A stretch of 35,483 nucleotides of DNA, taken from positions 1 to 35,483 of the forward strand of contig JAOZSE010000006.1 in assembly GCA_029939835.1 (NCBI GenBank), in the 5' to 3' direction. A program made the translations under genes and the position numbers. Below the pieces are notes generated by a model. That model was not told the origin of the DNA. It saw only the letters and a list, made by a program, of their open reading frames with translations, and did no database searches. Below are positions 9,468 to 34,627 of the stretch, piece after piece. The DNA is from Pontiellaceae bacterium (GTDB lineage Bacteria > Verrucomicrobiota > Kiritimatiellia > Kiritimatiellales > Tichowtungiaceae). The first letter of the stretch is position 1. Each line of letters opens with the position of its first letter.

Positions 9468-9573
9468 TGAAACGGGCGTTTTATCAAATATGAGATTCAG
9501 CCTCGGTGGAAAAAGCTTTCACGGGACAGGGATACGGGATGTGTCATTCAAAAAACATGTCGGTACATATAAC

Positions 9574-9624
9574 GTAGGACAGGCTTCCAGCCTGTCTGGA
9601 CAGGCAGGATGCCTGTCCTACTTT
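9574..9624. repeat. Twin-hairpin repeat (family A), copy 1
   Basis: GTAG closes with CTAC around two hairpins, GACAGGC-TTCCA-GCCTGTC and GACAGGC-AGGAT-GCCTGTC. The two arms can also pair with each other into one long hairpin. Copies are at 23350 and 24586. It lies between pilO and the next promoter, where it could end transcription (TTTTT follows on the plus strand). The surrounding 9409-9689 holds no gene. Confidence 0.9.
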
Positions 9625-9689
9625 TTAGACCGAAATGTTTTTGAAAATGGTATGAGATGCGAATCGCTGCTCGAAGAACAGCTTCTCCC

Positions 9690-16360: not shown

Positions 16361-16418
16361 AAAAGTAAAGCAAGCGTCTCGCTTGCTGAAAACGAGCGAG
16401 ACGCTCGTTCTACTTTTT
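16361..16418. repeat. Twin-hairpin palindromic element between convergent genes
   Basis: AAAAGTA and TACTTTTT close around two hairpins, GCAAGC-GTCTC-GCTTGC and AACGAGC-GAGAC-GCTCGTT. The loops GTCTC and GAGAC are exact complements, and the arms AGCGTCTCGCT and AGCGAGACGCT are reverse complements. It lies between the stops of two convergent genes and has T-runs on both strands, so it could be a bidirectional terminator. Confidence 0.85.
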
Positions 16419-16441
16419 ACCGAATCGTTGCCGTGATGGTA

Positions 16442-23291: not shown

Positions 23292-23349
23292 AGAAAAAAC
23301 AGCGGAAATGAACAAATGTTCAAAGTCTGAAGTTAATACCGCCGCTAAA

Positions 23350-23400
23350 GTAGGACAGGCTTCCAGCCTGTCTGAACAGCCAGGATGGCTGTCCTACCTT
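23350..23400. repeat. Twin-hairpin repeat (family A), copy 2
   Basis: GTAGGACAGGCTTCCAGCCT continues to GGATGGCTGTCCTAC. The layout is that of 9574-9624, with compensating changes in the second hairpin (ACAGCC with GGCTGT). It lies in the 415-bp gap after pilR, which otherwise contains only the pilin promoter and leader. Confidence 0.88.
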
Positions 23401-23583
23401 GTTAATATATCCCAAATCATCTCTTTATTGAGAAAATGAGCGGTTTAATAAACAGCGGGCAGTGCAAAAGAAATCGGGAGCCGTTTTTACCCTGAACAAT
23501 TTTCTATGTAAGTTGTTTGATTATAACGGGTAACATATATTGTTAAAAATGCTAAAGTCGATATACAGCTTGTAATATCCATT

Positions 23584-23599: not shown

Positions 23600-23706
23600 T
23601 ATTAATTCAGTTCGGATACGAACCGGCACACAAAACAAAGCGTCACAGGCACAAGACCGATAGCCGGGATAAAAAACAAAAACAAACACTAATAAGGACA
23701 CTAAAA

Positions 23707-24042
23707 ATGAAAAAGACAAAAAAACAGGGCTTCACCCTGGTTGAAATCATGATCGTTGTAGCGATCATCGGCCTCCTGGCCGCTATCGGTATTCCCTCAA
23801 TCCTGAACGCGATGAGCAATGCTCAGGATAAAGCCAAGCTGCGCAACATCGCGGATGTGATGAAAGCCAAAGGCATGTGCGTACTTCCCACGGATATGGG
23901 TGGAATCAACGCAACGAATGGCCAGGTTGTAGCCGCCGGAATCATTCTCAGCCATATGGACGGCGTGAGTACCCTGAGCGACCTCGAGGTCGGCGGTGAT
24001 CCCATCACGATCGGCGCCATTGGAACCGAACCGACCTACTAA
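23707..24042 (+). CDS. pilA: Small type IV pilin, probable major pilin
   Basis: Prepilin of 111 residues with a leader MKKTKKQG, cleaved after Gly. FTLVEIMIVVAIIGLLAAIG follows with Glu at +5. The globular part is only about 75 residues (DKAKLRNIADVMKAKGMCVL to TIGAIGTEPTY), close to the size of GspG-type pseudopilins. AAGGA precedes the ATG. It stands first of three pilin genes and has the longest leader and a terminator, so I take it as the main subunit. A single Cys (about residue 58) makes a classic C-terminal disulfide loop impossible. Confidence 0.9.
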   Translation: MKKTKKQGFTLVEIMIVVAIIGLLAAIGIPSILNAMSNAQDKAKLRNIADVMKAKGMCVLPTDMGGINATNGQVVAAGIILSHMDGVSTLSDLEVGGDPITIGAIGTEPTY

Positions 24043-24071
24043 ACGTTAGTTTTGGTCTGAATCGAAACCTC

Positions 24072-24097
24072 GCCCCGAACCTTCGGGACGGGGTTTT
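24072..24097 (+). terminator. Intrinsic terminator after the first pilin gene
   Basis: CCCCG and CGGGG pair around a TTCG-containing loop, with TTTTT directly after, 30 nt past the stop codon. Confidence 0.75.
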
Positions 24098-24115
24098 TGA
24101 TTCCCCCCTTTTTTC

Positions 24116-24131
24116 CGGCGCACTTGATGCT
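24116..24131 (+). promoter_or_regulatory. Candidate sigma-54 promoter of the second pilin gene
   Basis: CGGCGCACTTGATGCT, with GG to GC exactly 12 nt. The following TTGATGCTTCTA is shared with the third pilin promoter. Predicted +1 is near 24142. Confidence 0.55.
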
Positions 24132-24169
24132 TCTAATCTGTATCTGTACCATGATATGGAGAACGTGTT

Positions 24170-24502
24170 ATGAAAAACAAAACTGCATTTACGCTGGTTG
24201 AGGTGATGATTGTCGTAGCGATCATCGCCCTGCTCGCCGCCATCGGTATTCCCTCCATCCTGAACGCGATGAGCAAGGCTCAGGACAAAGCCAGAGAGCG
24301 CAACGTCGCGGATGTCCGGAAAGCCAAAAGCATGTGTATACTGCCCGTGGACATGGGCGGACAGGCCGCGACGAACGGCCAAGTCGTAGAAACCGGCATC
24401 GTTCTCGGCTATATGGACGGCGTGGATTCCCTGGACGACCTCAAAGTCGCCGGTGATCCCATTACGCTTGGCACCATCGGAACCGACCCGGAGTATGAAT
24501 AA
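24170..24502 (+). CDS. Small type IV pilin, paralogue 2
   Basis: Prepilin-like protein of 110 residues, about 60-65% identical by eye to the preceding pilin (SILNAMSKAQDKARERNVAD, LDDLKVAGDPITLGTIGTDP). Its leader is very short (MKNKTA), and the residue before the cut is Ala, not Gly; FTLVEVMIVVAII follows with Glu at +5. GGAG lies 9 nt before the ATG. The bases after both stops also match (AAACGTTAGTTT), so the duplication included the 3' flank. Confidence 0.9.
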   Translation: MKNKTAFTLVEVMIVVAIIALLAAIGIPSILNAMSKAQDKARERNVADVRKAKSMCILPVDMGGQAATNGQVVETGIVLGYMDGVDSLDDLKVAGDPITLGTIGTDPEYE

Positions 24503-24531
24503 ACGTTAGTTTCGGGTCTGGATGAAACCCC

Positions 24532-24554
24532 CGGTGCAGTTCGCGCCGTTTTTT
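24532..24554 (+). terminator. Intrinsic terminator after the second pilin gene
   Basis: CGGTGC-AGTTC-GCGCCG hairpin followed by six T, 30 nt past the stop codon. Confidence 0.65.
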
Positions 24555-24585
24555 CCCGCCCCGCCTTTCGGTACAGATTCCCAAC

Positions 24586-24638
24586 GTAGGAAAGGCTTCC
24601 AGCCTGTCTGAGACAGCCAAGATGGCTGTCCTACTTTA
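24586..24638. repeat. Twin-hairpin repeat (family A), copy 3
   Basis: GTAGGAAAGGCTTCCAGCCT followed by GACAGCC-AAGAT-GGCTGTC and CTAC. The same plan as 9574 and 23350. It lies between the terminator of the second pilin and the promoter of the third. Confidence 0.85.
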
Positions 24639-24668
24639 TACCAAAAAGTGCCTGGCCCAGAATCATTC

Positions 24669-24684
24669 CGGCACGTTTGATGCT
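24669..24684 (+). promoter_or_regulatory. Candidate sigma-54 promoter of the third pilin gene
   Basis: CGGCACGTTTGATGCT: nearly full -24 element, -12 ATGCT, GG to GC exactly 12 nt. Predicted +1 is near 24695, with a 25-nt leader carrying GGAGG. Confidence 0.68.
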
Positions 24685-24719
24685 TCTATCTGTTCTGTAC
24701 AATGAATGGAGGACGTATC

Positions 24720-25037
24720 ATGAAGAAAAAATATGCATTTACCCTGGTTGAGGTGATGATCGTTGTGGCCATCATCGCCCTGCTCGCCGCAGTCGGCATC
24801 CCCTCGTTTCTCAATTCGCGCCAGGGCGCGGAAACCAATATGAAGGGGGTCAATGTGTCCACTATTAACGCCGCCAAGGATCAGTGGGCCATCCTGAACA
24901 ACCAAGCGGCCGGCACCTCGGTGTCGTGGAATGATATTGCGGATTATGTCGGCGGCGGCATCACCAGCCAGTCGGATCTGGATATCGGCGGCTGCAGCAT
25001 CACCCTCAATGACATCGGCACCACCGCCGCGTATTGA
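24720..25037 (+). CDS. Small type IV pilin, paralogue 3
   Basis: Prepilin-like protein of 105 residues: leader MKKKYA with Ala at -1, then FTLVEVMIVVAIIALLAAVG. The body (AKDQWAILNNQAAGTSVSWN, DLDIGGCSITLNDIGTTAAY) has drifted from the other two but ends in the same I-T-L-x-x-I-G-T pattern. GGAGG lies 7 nt before the ATG at 24720; an in-frame ATG at 24702 would add a non-prepilin stretch and is rejected. It may be a minor or alternative pilin. The following 25038-25183 holds only a GGGGTG/CACCCC hairpin and a CGGCGAAGCTTGGCGAAGAT repeat. Confidence 0.88.
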   Translation: MKKKYAFTLVEVMIVVAIIALLAAVGIPSFLNSRQGAETNMKGVNVSTINAAKDQWAILNNQAAGTSVSWNDIADYVGGGITSQSDLDIGGCSITLNDIGTTAAY

Positions 25038-30735: not shown

Positions 30736-33456
30736 ATGGCTGAAACAATTACAAAAAAAGACGCCCTATTCGACGGATTCCAGAAACGCTCGGGTCTTGT
30801 CGTCCCGTTCAGCCGCAAAAAAATTGAGATGGCTATTCACCGCGCCGTCGAGGAAGTTTCCCGCAAACAGAATGTTCCGCGCAACGAAGGACTCGCCTCA
30901 AAAATCACGGCGCAGGTCATCGAACAGCTCAACAACCCGCAGTCTGAATTCTACGTACATCCCGACAATGAACAGAAGCGCATTCCCCGCATTGAAGACG
31001 TGCAGGACCTTGTTGAAATTCTGCTGTCCGAAAATGGCGAAACGCTCGTCGTCGCATCCTACAAGCGCTATCGCAAGCAGCGCGAAATCGCCCGCAACAA
31101 TATTCGCGTGCGCGACGGCAGCACGCAAAAAGACAAGGTAGACGTCACCGATGCCAGCCTGCTGCTGGTCGAATCAACCTCTGCCGAAGTCACCCTGCCC
31201 TGGGATCGCAAACGCATCGTAAAACAGATTATCGACAAAACCGACCTCGCCGTCGACACCGCCATCAGCATCGCCAAGTCGGTTGAAAACCGGATCATCG
31301 CCGGCAAAATGAACACCATCAACACCACGCTTATCCGCGAGATGGTAAACAATGAACTGGCCGAGCGCGGCCATCAGGCGCAGCTGCGCGACCTCTCGCT
31401 CTACGGCGTGCCGCTCGACTATGTTGAAAGCCTGATGTTCACCAAGTCCACCGAGAACAGCAACATCGTCAACAACAACCCCGAAGCCGTCAACCTCGGC
31501 ATCGCCGAACTCGTTCTCAAACAGTGGGCACTCGACACCATCTTCGATCCCGAAATCAAACGGGCGCACAACACCGGCGCCGTGCACCTGCACGACCTCG
31601 GCTATCCGCACCGCGTTTACTGTTCGAGTCACTCCATTGAGTATGTGAAAAAGTACGGCCTGCGCGGCCTGATCAACCTCAACACCGAATCGAGCCCGGC
31701 GCGCACCGCCTCCGTGCTCACCGGCCACCTCAACACCTTCCTCGCCTCGATGCAGGCCAACTATGCCGGCGCACTCGGCATCGCCTACATCAACATCCTC
31801 TACGCGCCGTTCCTCGAAGGCATGGACGCCAAAGGACTCAAACAGATCGCGCAGGAACTGATCTTCAACGGCTCGCAGAACGCCTTCAGCCGAGGTGGAC
31901 AGACGCTCTTCCTCGACTTCAACATCCACTCGGGCGTACCGAACTACCTGAAAACCGTGCCCGCCATCGGCCCGGGCGGCAAATACATGCTCAAACTCAA
32001 GAGCGGCGAAAAAGCCCCGCTCGAAGAAGTGCTGCGCGACGAATGCGACACCAGCGGCTATAAAATGATGGATCTCTACCTCGAAGAAGACGGCGCGAAA
32101 CGTCTGGTGATGCGCGAGATTGTCGGCAAGGAAGGTCTTGAATACGATGCTGACCTCGCCGCCGACCTCGAAAAGCGCGGTGAAAAAGTTGTCACCTACG
32201 GCGACTACACCACCGAGACACAGGAATTCTGCCGCGCCCTCCTCGAAGTCTGGGGCGACGGCGACCGTAACGGGCGCATCTTTGAATTCCCGAAGTGCGA
32301 CTTCCACATCTGTGACGAAACCTTCACCGATCCCGAGCAGTACGACATCTATCAGGCCGCCTGCGAACTCGCCGCGAAAAACGGTTCAACCTACTTCATC
32401 TTCGACCGCGATGAAGTCACGCTCTCCGCCTGCTGCCGCCTGCGCACCACCATCAGCGACAACCGCATGCTGCGCCACCCCGAAAACATGCGCTTCTGCG
32501 GCTTCCAGAACGTCACCATCAACATCCCGCAGGCCGCCTACCGCGCGGCGCGCAAAGGCGGCGACATCCTGCAGGACTTCTACGGCGAGATCGACAAAAT
32601 GATGGAGCTCGTCGCGCAGGCCCACCTGCAGAAGAAGGAAAAGAGCGCCGAAATGATCAGCGGCAACGGCCATCCGCTCTGGCAAATTGGAAAAGAGTCC
32701 TGCGACGGCAAACCCTACGTCAACCTCGACACCTGCACCTACATCATCGGACTCATCGGTGTCAACGACGCCGTCAAATTCCTGATCGGTCAGGATCTGC
32801 ACGACAGCGAAGAAGCGCAGCAGCTCGGCCTGCGCATCGTGGCACATATGTACACCCGAACCAAAAAGCTCAGCAAAAAGCATAACCTCAAATTCACCCT
32901 GGAGGAATCGCCCGCCGAAAGCGCCGCGCGCCGCCTGGCCAAAACCGACCTCGTCTACTTCCGCGACGAAGCCAAAGATATCGTCAAAGGTGAAACCGAG
33001 GACGTCTGCTACTACACCAATTCCGTGCACCTCACCGCCGAAGCGCCTGTCGGGCTGGTCGAACGCATCCGCGAACAGGCCAAATACCACAGCCTGATCG
33101 AGTCCGGTGCCATCACCCACGCCTTCGTCGGCGAAGAACAGCCCTCAGCCGCATCCATCGAAAAACTGATGACCGAAACCTTCTTCCGCACGCAGTCGGC
33201 TCAGGTGTGCATCTCGCCCGAATTCACCTTCTGCAACCACTGCCACCACCAGACCCGCGGCCTGCTGGAACGCTGCCCGGCCTGTGATTCGACCGAGGTG
33301 GTCGGCGAAACCCGCGTCGTCGGCTACTTCAGCAAAATCCAGAACTGGAATAAGTCCAAGCGTTACGGCGAGCTCGTCGCCCGTCAGGCCGGAAAATACA
33401 ACGTGGAAACCGCTGATGAAGGTGCCGGGCAAAAACTGGTAAAGGTGGAAAGCTGA
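30736..33456 (+). CDS. nrdD: Anaerobic (class III) ribonucleoside-triphosphate reductase with two ATP-cones
   Basis: Glycyl-radical enzyme of 906 residues that makes deoxynucleotides without oxygen. There are two successive ATP-cone domains (about 15-120, VVPFSRKKIEMAIHRAVEEV; and about 150-220, VTLPWDRKRIVKQIIDKTDL). The ten-stranded barrel follows (FSRGGQTLFLDFNIHSGVPN, SACCRLRTTISDN), then a zinc site (CNHC and CPAC). The glycyl-radical loop TRVVGYFSKIQNWNKSK has Gly at about 863. Most NrdD proteins have about 600-720 residues and one cone, so the second cone accounts for much of the extra length. A purine-rich site precedes the ATG. The redoxin and activase genes follow. Confidence 0.96.
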   Translation: MAETITKKDALFDGFQKRSGLVVPFSRKKIEMAIHRAVEEVSRKQNVPRNEGLASKITAQVIEQLNNPQSEFYVHPDNEQKRIPRIEDVQDLVEILLSENGETLVVASYKRYRKQREIARNNIRVRDGSTQKDKVDVTDASLLLVESTSAEVTLPWDRKRIVKQIIDKTDLAVDTAISIAKSVENRIIAGKMNTINTTLIREMVNNELAERGHQAQLRDLSLYGVPLDYVESLMFTKSTENSNIVNNNPEAVNLGIAELVLKQWALDTIFDPEIKRAHNTGAVHLHDLGYPHRVYCSSHSIEYVKKYGLRGLINLNTESSPARTASVLTGHLNTFLASMQANYAGALGIAYINILYAPFLEGMDAKGLKQIAQELIFNGSQNAFSRGGQTLFLDFNIHSGVPNYLKTVPAIGPGGKYMLKLKSGEKAPLEEVLRDECDTSGYKMMDLYLEEDGAKRLVMREIVGKEGLEYDADLAADLEKRGEKVVTYGDYTTETQEFCRALLEVWGDGDRNGRIFEFPKCDFHICDETFTDPEQYDIYQAACELAAKNGSTYFIFDRDEVTLSACCRLRTTISDNRMLRHPENMRFCGFQNVTINIPQAAYRAARKGGDILQDFYGEIDKMMELVAQAHLQKKEKSAEMISGNGHPLWQIGKESCDGKPYVNLDTCTYIIGLIGVNDAVKFLIGQDLHDSEEAQQLGLRIVAHMYTRTKKLSKKHNLKFTLEESPAESAARRLAKTDLVYFRDEAKDIVKGETEDVCYYTNSVHLTAEAPVGLVERIREQAKYHSLIESGAITHAFVGEEQPSAASIEKLMTETFFRTQSAQVCISPEFTFCNHCHHQTRGLLERCPACDSTEVVGETRVVGYFSKIQNWNKSKRYGELVARQAGKYNVETADEGAGQKLVKVES

Positions 33457-33482
33457 TGATTTCGAATTCAGGAGACGTAACG

Positions 33483-33878
33483 ATGGCAAAACCCTACAAA
33501 ATCCAGATCTTCGGCAAAGAAGGCTGCGCGAAATGCAAAACCCTCAACCAGCGTCTCGACAAACTGCTTAAGGAAAAAAAGTGGTCCGATTTTGAAAAAG
33601 AATACTGCGATGTCGAAACGGTTGACGGACTCGTCGCCTTCGCCACCGCTGAATGTATCAACCCCCAGCGGATTCCTGCCATGCTCGTTACTCAACGGCA
33701 GGAAGAGACCGAACGCTACGTTCCGGTTCAGACCGCCAGCCCGCAGCCGTGCGATGAGGTCTGCGGCAAATCAAAGCTCTACCAGTACGTCGGCCTGCAA
33801 ACCGACTACACCGACGAAGGTAAAGGAATCATCTCCCCCAAGATGATCACCGCGGTACTCGATGAGGCCCGCAGGTGA
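33483..33878 (+). CDS. Glutaredoxin/thioredoxin-like protein, likely electron donor of NrdD
   Basis: Small redoxin of 131 residues. An active-site-like CAKC (Cys15 and Cys18, FGKEGCAKCKTLNQRLDKLL) follows the first strand. The cis-Pro motif is IPAMLVT after NPQR. A further Cys pair (PCDEVC) lies near 100. The ATG at 33483 has GGAG 8 nt upstream. It sits between nrdD and the activase gene and overlaps the latter by one base (TGATG). Some class III reductases use thioredoxin or an NrdH-type redoxin instead of formate, and this position fits that, an inference. Confidence 0.82.
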   Translation: MAKPYKIQIFGKEGCAKCKTLNQRLDKLLKEKKWSDFEKEYCDVETVDGLVAFATAECINPQRIPAMLVTQRQEETERYVPVQTASPQPCDEVCGKSKLYQYVGLQTDYTDEGKGIISPKMITAVLDEARR

Positions 33879-34627
33879 TGCCCCCCGGAGCGTCAGCTCC
33901 GCGTAAACAGGCGGCCGGAGGCCGCAATGGTGCCGAGTCGCCTGTTTACGCATTTTTAGAAAAGCCATCCCTCATTGATTATCCCGGATGCCTCTGCGGC
34001 GTCTTTTTTGTGAGCGGCTGCAACTTTTCCTGCGGTTTCTGTCACAACGCTTCGCTCATGGGTGCTAAACAAAAAGGCATCCCGTGGAGCCGCCTCGAAG
34101 AGGTCTGCCGTAAATTCAAAAACGAATGGGTGGACGCCGTCTGCATTACCGGCGGCGAACCGACCCTTGCCGCCGACCTCATCAAACTCATCGAATTCTT
34201 CCGCGGCTTCGGCTTCAAGATCAAACTCGACACCAACGGAGGCAGCCCGGAGTTTCTCAAGAAGTGCCTGCCGCTGGTGGATTACGTCGCTATGGATATC
34301 AAAGCCGGACTCTCCGGTTATTCCGAACTCACCGGCTTCAAAGACACCGGTAAAATCCGGGAATCCATCCAACTCATCATGGACAGCGGCAAAGAATATG
34401 AATTCCGCACCACCGTCATCGAATCCGTCCACACCGACGAACAAATGCATGAAATCGGCGAATTAATTCAGGGAGTCAAACGCTATGTCTTGCAGGCCTT
34501 CGTCCCGCAGGACACCCTGCCCGGCACCGAATTCCGCGCCCTCAAACGCACCCGCCCCGAACGCCTCCGCCAGCTCGAAAAACTCATGGCCCCCTGTGCC
34601 GACGAAATCATCGTAAGGGGGGCGTGA
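33878..34627 (+). CDS. nrdG: Radical-SAM activating enzyme of the anaerobic reductase (NrdG-type)
   Basis: Iron-sulfur radical-SAM protein of 249 residues that would generate the glycyl radical on NrdD. CNFSCGFC is the CxxxCxxC cluster motif, after EKPSLIDYPGCLCGVFFVSG. ITGGEPTL is the SAM-binding GGE motif. The order and length fit the NrdG group related to TIGR02495. The ATG overlaps the redoxin stop. Codons 2-26 (PPGASAPRKQAAGGRNGAES) are a palindromic repeat, and no other in-frame start exists between it and the conserved part, so the repeat is translated. Confidence 0.92.
   Translation: MPPGASAPRKQAAGGRNGAESPVYAFLEKPSLIDYPGCLCGVFFVSGCNFSCGFCHNASLMGAKQKGIPWSRLEEVCRKFKNEWVDAVCITGGEPTLAADLIKLIEFFRGFGFKIKLDTNGGSPEFLKKCLPLVDYVAMDIKAGLSGYSELTGFKDTGKIRESIQLIMDSGKEYEFRTTVIESVHTDEQMHEIGELIQGVKRYVLQAFVPQDTLPGTEFRALKRTRPERLRQLEKLMAPCADEIIVRGA
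33887..33951. repeat. Multi-hairpin palindromic element inside the nrdG start
   Basis: GGAGC-GTCA-GCTCC comes first. A perfect 12-bp stem follows (GCGTAAACAGGC at 33901 with GCCTGTTTACGC at 33940), enclosing GCGGCC-GGA-GGCCGC. TTTTTA comes after it. Confidence 0.88.

Follow-up and report, generated by a model that had tools for sequence, protein, structure and literature searches.

The window analyzed here, that is, the whole stretch of 35,483 nucleotides, comes from contig C131 of a draft genome (1.93 Mb in 183 contigs, 87% complete) whose relatives are uncultured Kiritimatiellota/Verrucomicrobia MAGs; Pontiellaceae appears to be the sister family. Three consecutive genes with overlapping ends on the forward strand encode an anaerobic ribonucleotide reductase, a redoxin and the reductase activase, with a palindromic element located at the redoxin-activase boundary. 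The features are as follows.

30736-33456, + strand: nrdD, anaerobic ribonucleotide reductase, the first gene of the operon (TIGR02487, 365 bits; PF13597)
33456-33878, + strand: glutaredoxin-like redoxin gene, with ends overlapping nrdD and nrdG (PF05768/TIGR00412; synteny in relatives)
33876-33880, + strand: TGATG, overlap of the redoxin stop codon and the nrdG ATG, with a shared A (from the sequence)
33878-34627, + strand: nrdG ORF, NrdG2-type activase, 249 amino acids (TIGR02495)
33887-33900, + strand: small hairpin GGAGC-GTCA-GCTCC, directly 5' of the terminator-like stem (from the fold)
33901-33913, + strand: 5' arm of the terminator-like stem, GCGTAAACAGGCG (longest perfect stem in the window; covariation)
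33914-33938, + strand: apical region of the hairpin, with 6 nt more than in congeners owing to an in-frame indel (from the alignment)
33939-33951, + strand: 3' arm of the stem, CGCCTGTTTACGC, ancestral nrdG codons S-P-V-Y-A (from the NrdG N-termini of relatives)
33953-33957, + strand: U tract TTTTT, part of the codons for Phe26 and Leu27 (TTT TTA; from the sequence)
NrdG N-terminus, + strand: predicted translated extension, MPPGASAPRKQAAGG...

The identification of the third gene as the activase in the original prediction is confirmed by a TIGR02495 score of 164.8 bits, above the cutoff, whereas the PF05768 and TIGR00412 scores of the redoxin are both weak and fall under the curated cut-offs. 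The overlap of the redoxin stop and the nrdG start is located where it had been described, and TGATG is likely to be a termination-reinitiation site. Outside the window, the same genome contains a second, distant NrdD-like stretch (G000:C77:2682-3611; 27% identity, E 8e-13).

The 5' end of the nrdG ORF had been singled out as a strong palindrome, and folding bears this out: the minimum free energy (MFE) of the RNA is -46.4 kcal/mol, compared with the mean of -28.8 kcal/mol for shuffled sequences (z = -5.3), and none of the 200 shuffles equals it. The closing stem is perfect, as proposed, but consists of 13 rather than 12 bp (33901-33913 paired with 33939-33951); no other perfect short-loop stem in the window is as long. 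The three hairpins of the original prediction are reduced to two, the sense strand forming a small hairpin and a long one; the third corresponds to GCGGCC-GGA-GGCCGC, an alternative inner pairing dependent on an insertion peculiar to the window genome. All five pairs of the small hairpin are retained in eight of the nine sequences that have it, and four of these pairs are invariant. Overlooked at that stage was the TTTTT at 33953-33957, which begins one base past the stem (A-TTTTT, 33952-33957) and makes the element terminator-like. A simple terminator scan did not list this site because only loops of 3-8 nt were allowed, and an Rfam search with the element and the whole window produced no match at the gathering score, only two at chance level (E 2.7 and 7).

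Comparison with the relatives shows that, in ten genomes of the genus, the interval from the redoxin stop to the NrdG core contains a GC-rich stem that covaries and, straight after it, a U tract of T4 to T6. The U tract is short (T5 in the window, T4 in G013), and in G008 and G012 the stem is imperfect and the fold less stable (around -26 to -28 kcal/mol). The genus tree, built on NrdD, redoxin and the NrdG core, consists of two clades. Clade B includes the window genome (G000, placed at the base with weak support, 77/61), G002, G006, G007, G008, G012 and G013, along with G004 and G005, in which the contigs end. In the first seven of these genomes, the window genome and six congeners, the hairpin lies in frame inside the ORF (M-xPGAxAPRKQAALPQGESPVYAFLEKPS), with the 5' arm encoding a tail of about 19 amino acids and the 3' arm together with the U tract encoding SPVYAFL; the predicted start is TGATG or TAATG in six of the seven and an ATG inside the redoxin end in G006. 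In the other three genomes (clade A: G003, G009 and G010), the homologous hairpin is free, following the redoxin stop, and is itself followed by T4-T6, a ribosome-binding site and a separate ATG, with a short tail such as MNAEQKPADSASPVYAFLEKPS. One more genome, G001 (locus L015), nested in clade A among the hairpin-bearing genomes, has no hairpin, with nrdG starting 13 nt past the redoxin stop; thus, the element can be lost and its function is dispensable.

In the sister family, nrdG typically begins a few codons ahead of S-[VI]-YAYLEKPS, and 14 of the 18 redoxin-nrdG junctions contain another stem with a T-rich tail (12 strong, 2 weak), whereas the remaining 4 of the 18 examined have no terminator-like match, so that the terminator is not universal in this family. 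Given these 14 junctions, a terminator at the redoxin-nrdG junction looks like a recurrent feature of the operon; in the genus, the position of the element between co-directional genes is conserved in clades A and B. In five sister-family sequences (L017, L020, L025, L028 and L029), the redoxin stop is followed by a different, 15-bp hairpin with a variable stem sequence in which pairing is kept, a T-rich tail and a conserved CCTCC-rich loop, ACCTCCTCCCTC, that resembles an anti-Shine-Dalgarno sequence. This hairpin was considered as a dispersed repeat and rejected: the pattern matched one site in each of just four genomes, all on nrdG contigs.

The comparison also redefines the protein extension, which had been delimited as codons 2-26. 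The NrdG N-termini of all relatives carry SPVYA or a close variant; because SPVYAFLEKPS is ancestral nrdG sequence, the 3' arm and the T tract correspond to codons 21-27 (SPVYAFL), of which 21-26 had been counted as extension, and only codons 2-20 are extra. The palindrome itself is very probably translated as the N-terminus of NrdG, judging from the TGATG or TAATG start, the frame that is open from TGATG through the hairpin to NrdG, the in-frame indels that recur in the fused congeners, and, as already claimed, the absence of a later start: there is no in-frame ATG, GTG or TTG from codon 1 to the NrdG core, and the next candidate, the GTG of codon 45, is inside the fold. The expectation that the extension would be missing where the element is missing holds only in part, given that clade A has the element, but outside the gene.

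The extension had further been described as repeat-encoded, by analogy with the Rickettsia palindromic elements (RPEs). Translation of the element is one thing and repetition is another: in the assembled part of the genome of origin, no other copies of the element were found, the residual matches being 13-15 bases long, two of them between one stem arm and the other. The window genome and six congeners each have a single instance of the exact core, GGAGCGNNAGCTCCGCG, always at the nrd locus, and its one-mismatch matches elsewhere are unrelated. A covariance model of the ten genus genomes yielded strong matches (59-101 bits), among 58 genomes, solely at the same ten redoxin-nrdG junctions; its other matches either lay on the opposite strand of these stems or scored close to chance. 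As a positive control, the same search method detected 59 matches in the window genome for a dispersed palindrome, GTAGGACAGGCTTCCAGCCTGTC. Empty sites, expected in relatives for an RPE- or MITE-like insertion, were not found, with the hairpin present at the junction in 10 of the 11 readable genus genomes.

An origin of the element as a mobile or repetitive palindrome inserted in frame into nrdG accordingly appears extremely unlikely. Like RPEs (PMC10969869), the element is self-complementary and in frame, and extends a metabolic enzyme by a peptide, but it is single-copy and locus-specific across the genus, compared with 59 matches for a true dispersed palindrome, the codons in its 3' arm are ancestral to nrdG, and synteny of the hairpin is preserved even in the genomes that have it outside the gene. 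Vertical inheritance in synteny and a 3' arm made of nrdG's own codons imply that the element did not enter the gene as a finished unit. RPEs comprise multi-copy families of ∼150 bp in unrelated genes, with 44 insertions reported in R. conorii (PMC10969869), so that the analogy fails on the defining feature. What the nrdG element shares with RPEs and MITEs is that palindromic DNA is read in frame within a metabolic enzyme; unlike them, it is bound to a single locus and derives in part from the host gene itself.

Bona fide repeats do occur in the window. The dispersed palindrome (GTAGGACAGGCTTCCAGCCTGTC with its inverted partner) is found at 9570-9627, 23346-23403 and 24583-24640, with the 59 genome-wide matches counted at up to two mismatches, and a related copy is located near 16373-16419. 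Another short palindrome, GGAGCGGGCGCTCCGCG, is present in several genus genomes (G000:C116:8370-8386, G003, G004, G007, G013 and G006), including three copies 121 bp apart, in tandem, at G006:C62:772-1030. In the region 23699-24814 of the window, direct repeats of 109-300 nt are spaced ∼500 nt apart and share 72-82% identity; they are probably tandemly duplicated small genes.

The stem of the nrdG element is under constraint. In the alignment of the ten genus genomes, 95.1% of the stem cells are paired and two-sided changes are seen in six pairs; at 0.223, the covariation score exceeds those of shuffled (0.146; 0 of 500) and slid alignments (at most 0.111). In G006, a 17-bp stem with a different inner sequence tracks this genome's own nrdG codons. 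The U tract is marked by codon choice: the Leu after A-F/L is encoded by TTA in all seven fused genes, although TTA accounts for only 13 of the 842 Leu codons in the ORFs of the window (1.5%) and none of the 79 in nrdD. In unfused nrdG, the same Leu is encoded by TTA in one of four clade A and two of 18 sister-family genes, a difference from the fused genes that reaches p = 7.7e-5 in Fisher's test with kinship ignored, the seven fused genomes being related by descent, so that the codon statistics are not independent. This choice of codon suggests selection on the U tract.

Substitution rates, calculated for six clade B genomes with G006 excluded, point in the same direction as the pairing. The pS values for the extension, SPVYAFLE and the core are 0.34, 0.21 and 0.51, respectively, and the pN/pS values are 0.57, 0.18 and 0.25. 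With synonymous sites evolving slower than in the core and amino acids relatively faster, the extension appears to be constrained more as RNA than as protein. Retention of the extension for the sake of the protein, as a functional N-terminal tail of NrdG with an incidental palindrome, would be compatible with pN/pS below 1 and with the APRKQAALPQGES motif that is common to several congeners, but is rendered very unlikely by these relative rates, by the covariation of the stem and by the lack of the tail in NrdG of clade A and the sister family. Moreover, AlphaFold2 confidence (pLDDT) is below 50 for residues 1-15, the core being modeled confidently, and the tail of about 19 amino acids is probably disordered. 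Taken together, covariation, the TTA codon, synonymous divergence and low AlphaFold confidence lead us to infer that what is conserved is the RNA signal (stem and U tract), with the tail tolerated as a by-product.

If the RNA is what is conserved, it could act in more than one way. A hairpin controlling translation, by blocking or timing reinitiation at TGATG or by slowing early elongation, would thereby set the synthesis of NrdG. The hairpin lies downstream of the TGATG stop, at a distance of ∼8 nt, and in G000, G007 and G013 its loop GTCA could alternatively base-pair with the TGATG region, albeit in the MFE structure of G007 only. However, this alternative pairing (TGATG...GCGTCA) is available in a few genomes only, being absent from G002, G008 and G012, and the clade A hairpin is kept, with its T tract, outside any translated gene, which makes translational control improbable. 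Neither a competing antiterminator nor a fold sequestering the Shine-Dalgarno sequence is conserved among these genomes; there is one conserved fold of two helices. Alternatively, the stem might act on the stability or processing of the mRNA, protecting the 3' end of nrdD-redoxin or providing an endonuclease site, with differential decay in place of termination. A strong conserved stem between genes whose products are probably needed in different amounts would fit this scenario, and differential decay within operons is widespread (PMC5927463). Still, an effect on stability seems unlikely as it explains neither the rare TTA and the U tract after the stem, present in 7 of 7 fused genes and mostly released in unfused nrdG, nor the fact that the free copies are built like terminators.

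The element is thus probably an attenuator of the nrdD-redoxin-nrdG operon that is conserved, resembles an intrinsic terminator and forms part of the nrdG reading frame. Under the proposed mechanism, RNA polymerase that has passed the redoxin gene would terminate part of the time at the hairpin, so that nrdG would be produced at a lower level than nrdD-redoxin, the activase being presumably required in smaller amounts than the reductase. Ribosomes that end at the redoxin TGA would restart at the overlapping ATG, enter the hairpin, which in clade B lies ∼8-75 nt downstream of the stop-start, and melt it; readthrough into nrdG would then depend on coupled translation. The tail would be tolerated as the price of holding an RNA signal in frame. 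A more specific version, a leaderless, ligand-free, translation-gated attenuator in which the 3' arm and the U tract code for the very gene that is throttled, and which switches between the intergenic and in-ORF states via a duplicated 17-bp sequence, is possible but doubtful.

Partial terminators within operons are familiar from the rpsU-dnaG-rpoD operon of Escherichia coli, where such a terminator sets gene ratios. The nrdG element is similar in consisting of a hairpin and a U tract between co-directional genes with products required in different amounts; the differences are that the known partial terminators are intergenic, whereas in one of the clades this hairpin is inside the ORF, with the 3' arm and the U tract serving as codons, and that partial termination is predicted here from sequence comparison. 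The intra-operon terminators (ioTTSs) of Methanococcus maripaludis similarly lower the output of downstream genes (PMC10450193). In E. coli, RNA 3' ends have been mapped within coding sequences, some of them intrinsic-terminator-like (Adams et al. 2021, PMC7815308). These ORF-internal or 5' premature termination sites and the putative terminator of nrdG share a location within a coding sequence, but the former are mapped as RNA 3' ends, whereas the case for nrdG is comparative and includes a sister clade with the element outside the gene. The trp and his leaders are ribosome-mediated attenuators, in which translation of overlapping codons decides whether the terminator forms. The same would apply to the putative nrdG terminator, although it has no separate leader peptide, regulatory codon run or conserved antiterminator pairing. 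In the literature searched, which mostly did not extend to subscription journals, no nrdG attenuator was found. On the comparative evidence, the element would be best classified as a variant of the intra-operon terminator/attenuator.

The two forms of the element are connected by a duplicated sequence. In clade A, a 17-mer of the terminator 3' arm, CGCCYGTTTRYGCATTT, recurs almost unchanged in the nrdG codons at a distance of 88-89 bp (at most one mismatch to the pattern). Chance is far from sufficient to explain such a pair, which implies a duplication or, in the case of clade B, a deletion between the copies. As the 17-mer belongs to nrdG by origin and is complemented by the 5' arm, the fewest steps would be required by an ancestral hairpin that used nrdG codons and a subsequent duplication in clade A; the opposite order, with the free form first and a deletion in clade B, agrees with the free terminators of the outgroup. 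A search of the clade A spacer between the 17-mers for decayed nrdG codons, which would betray a tandem duplication, gave scores no higher than those of shuffled sequences in 3 of 3 genomes.

The mobile-repeat account is hence replaced by one in which a probable operon signal has been absorbed into, or has budded from, the coding sequence of the gene that it apparently controls. This would account for an odd N-terminal extension of the kind that annotation pipelines would silently retain or remove. The same ∼75 bases are free, and putatively regulatory, in one clade and fused, both putatively regulatory and coding, in the sister clade of the same genus, so that it is possible to measure how codon choice and RNA signal conflict, as illustrated by the TTA codon. 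The attenuator reading also yields a simple prediction for the NrdG:NrdD stoichiometry.
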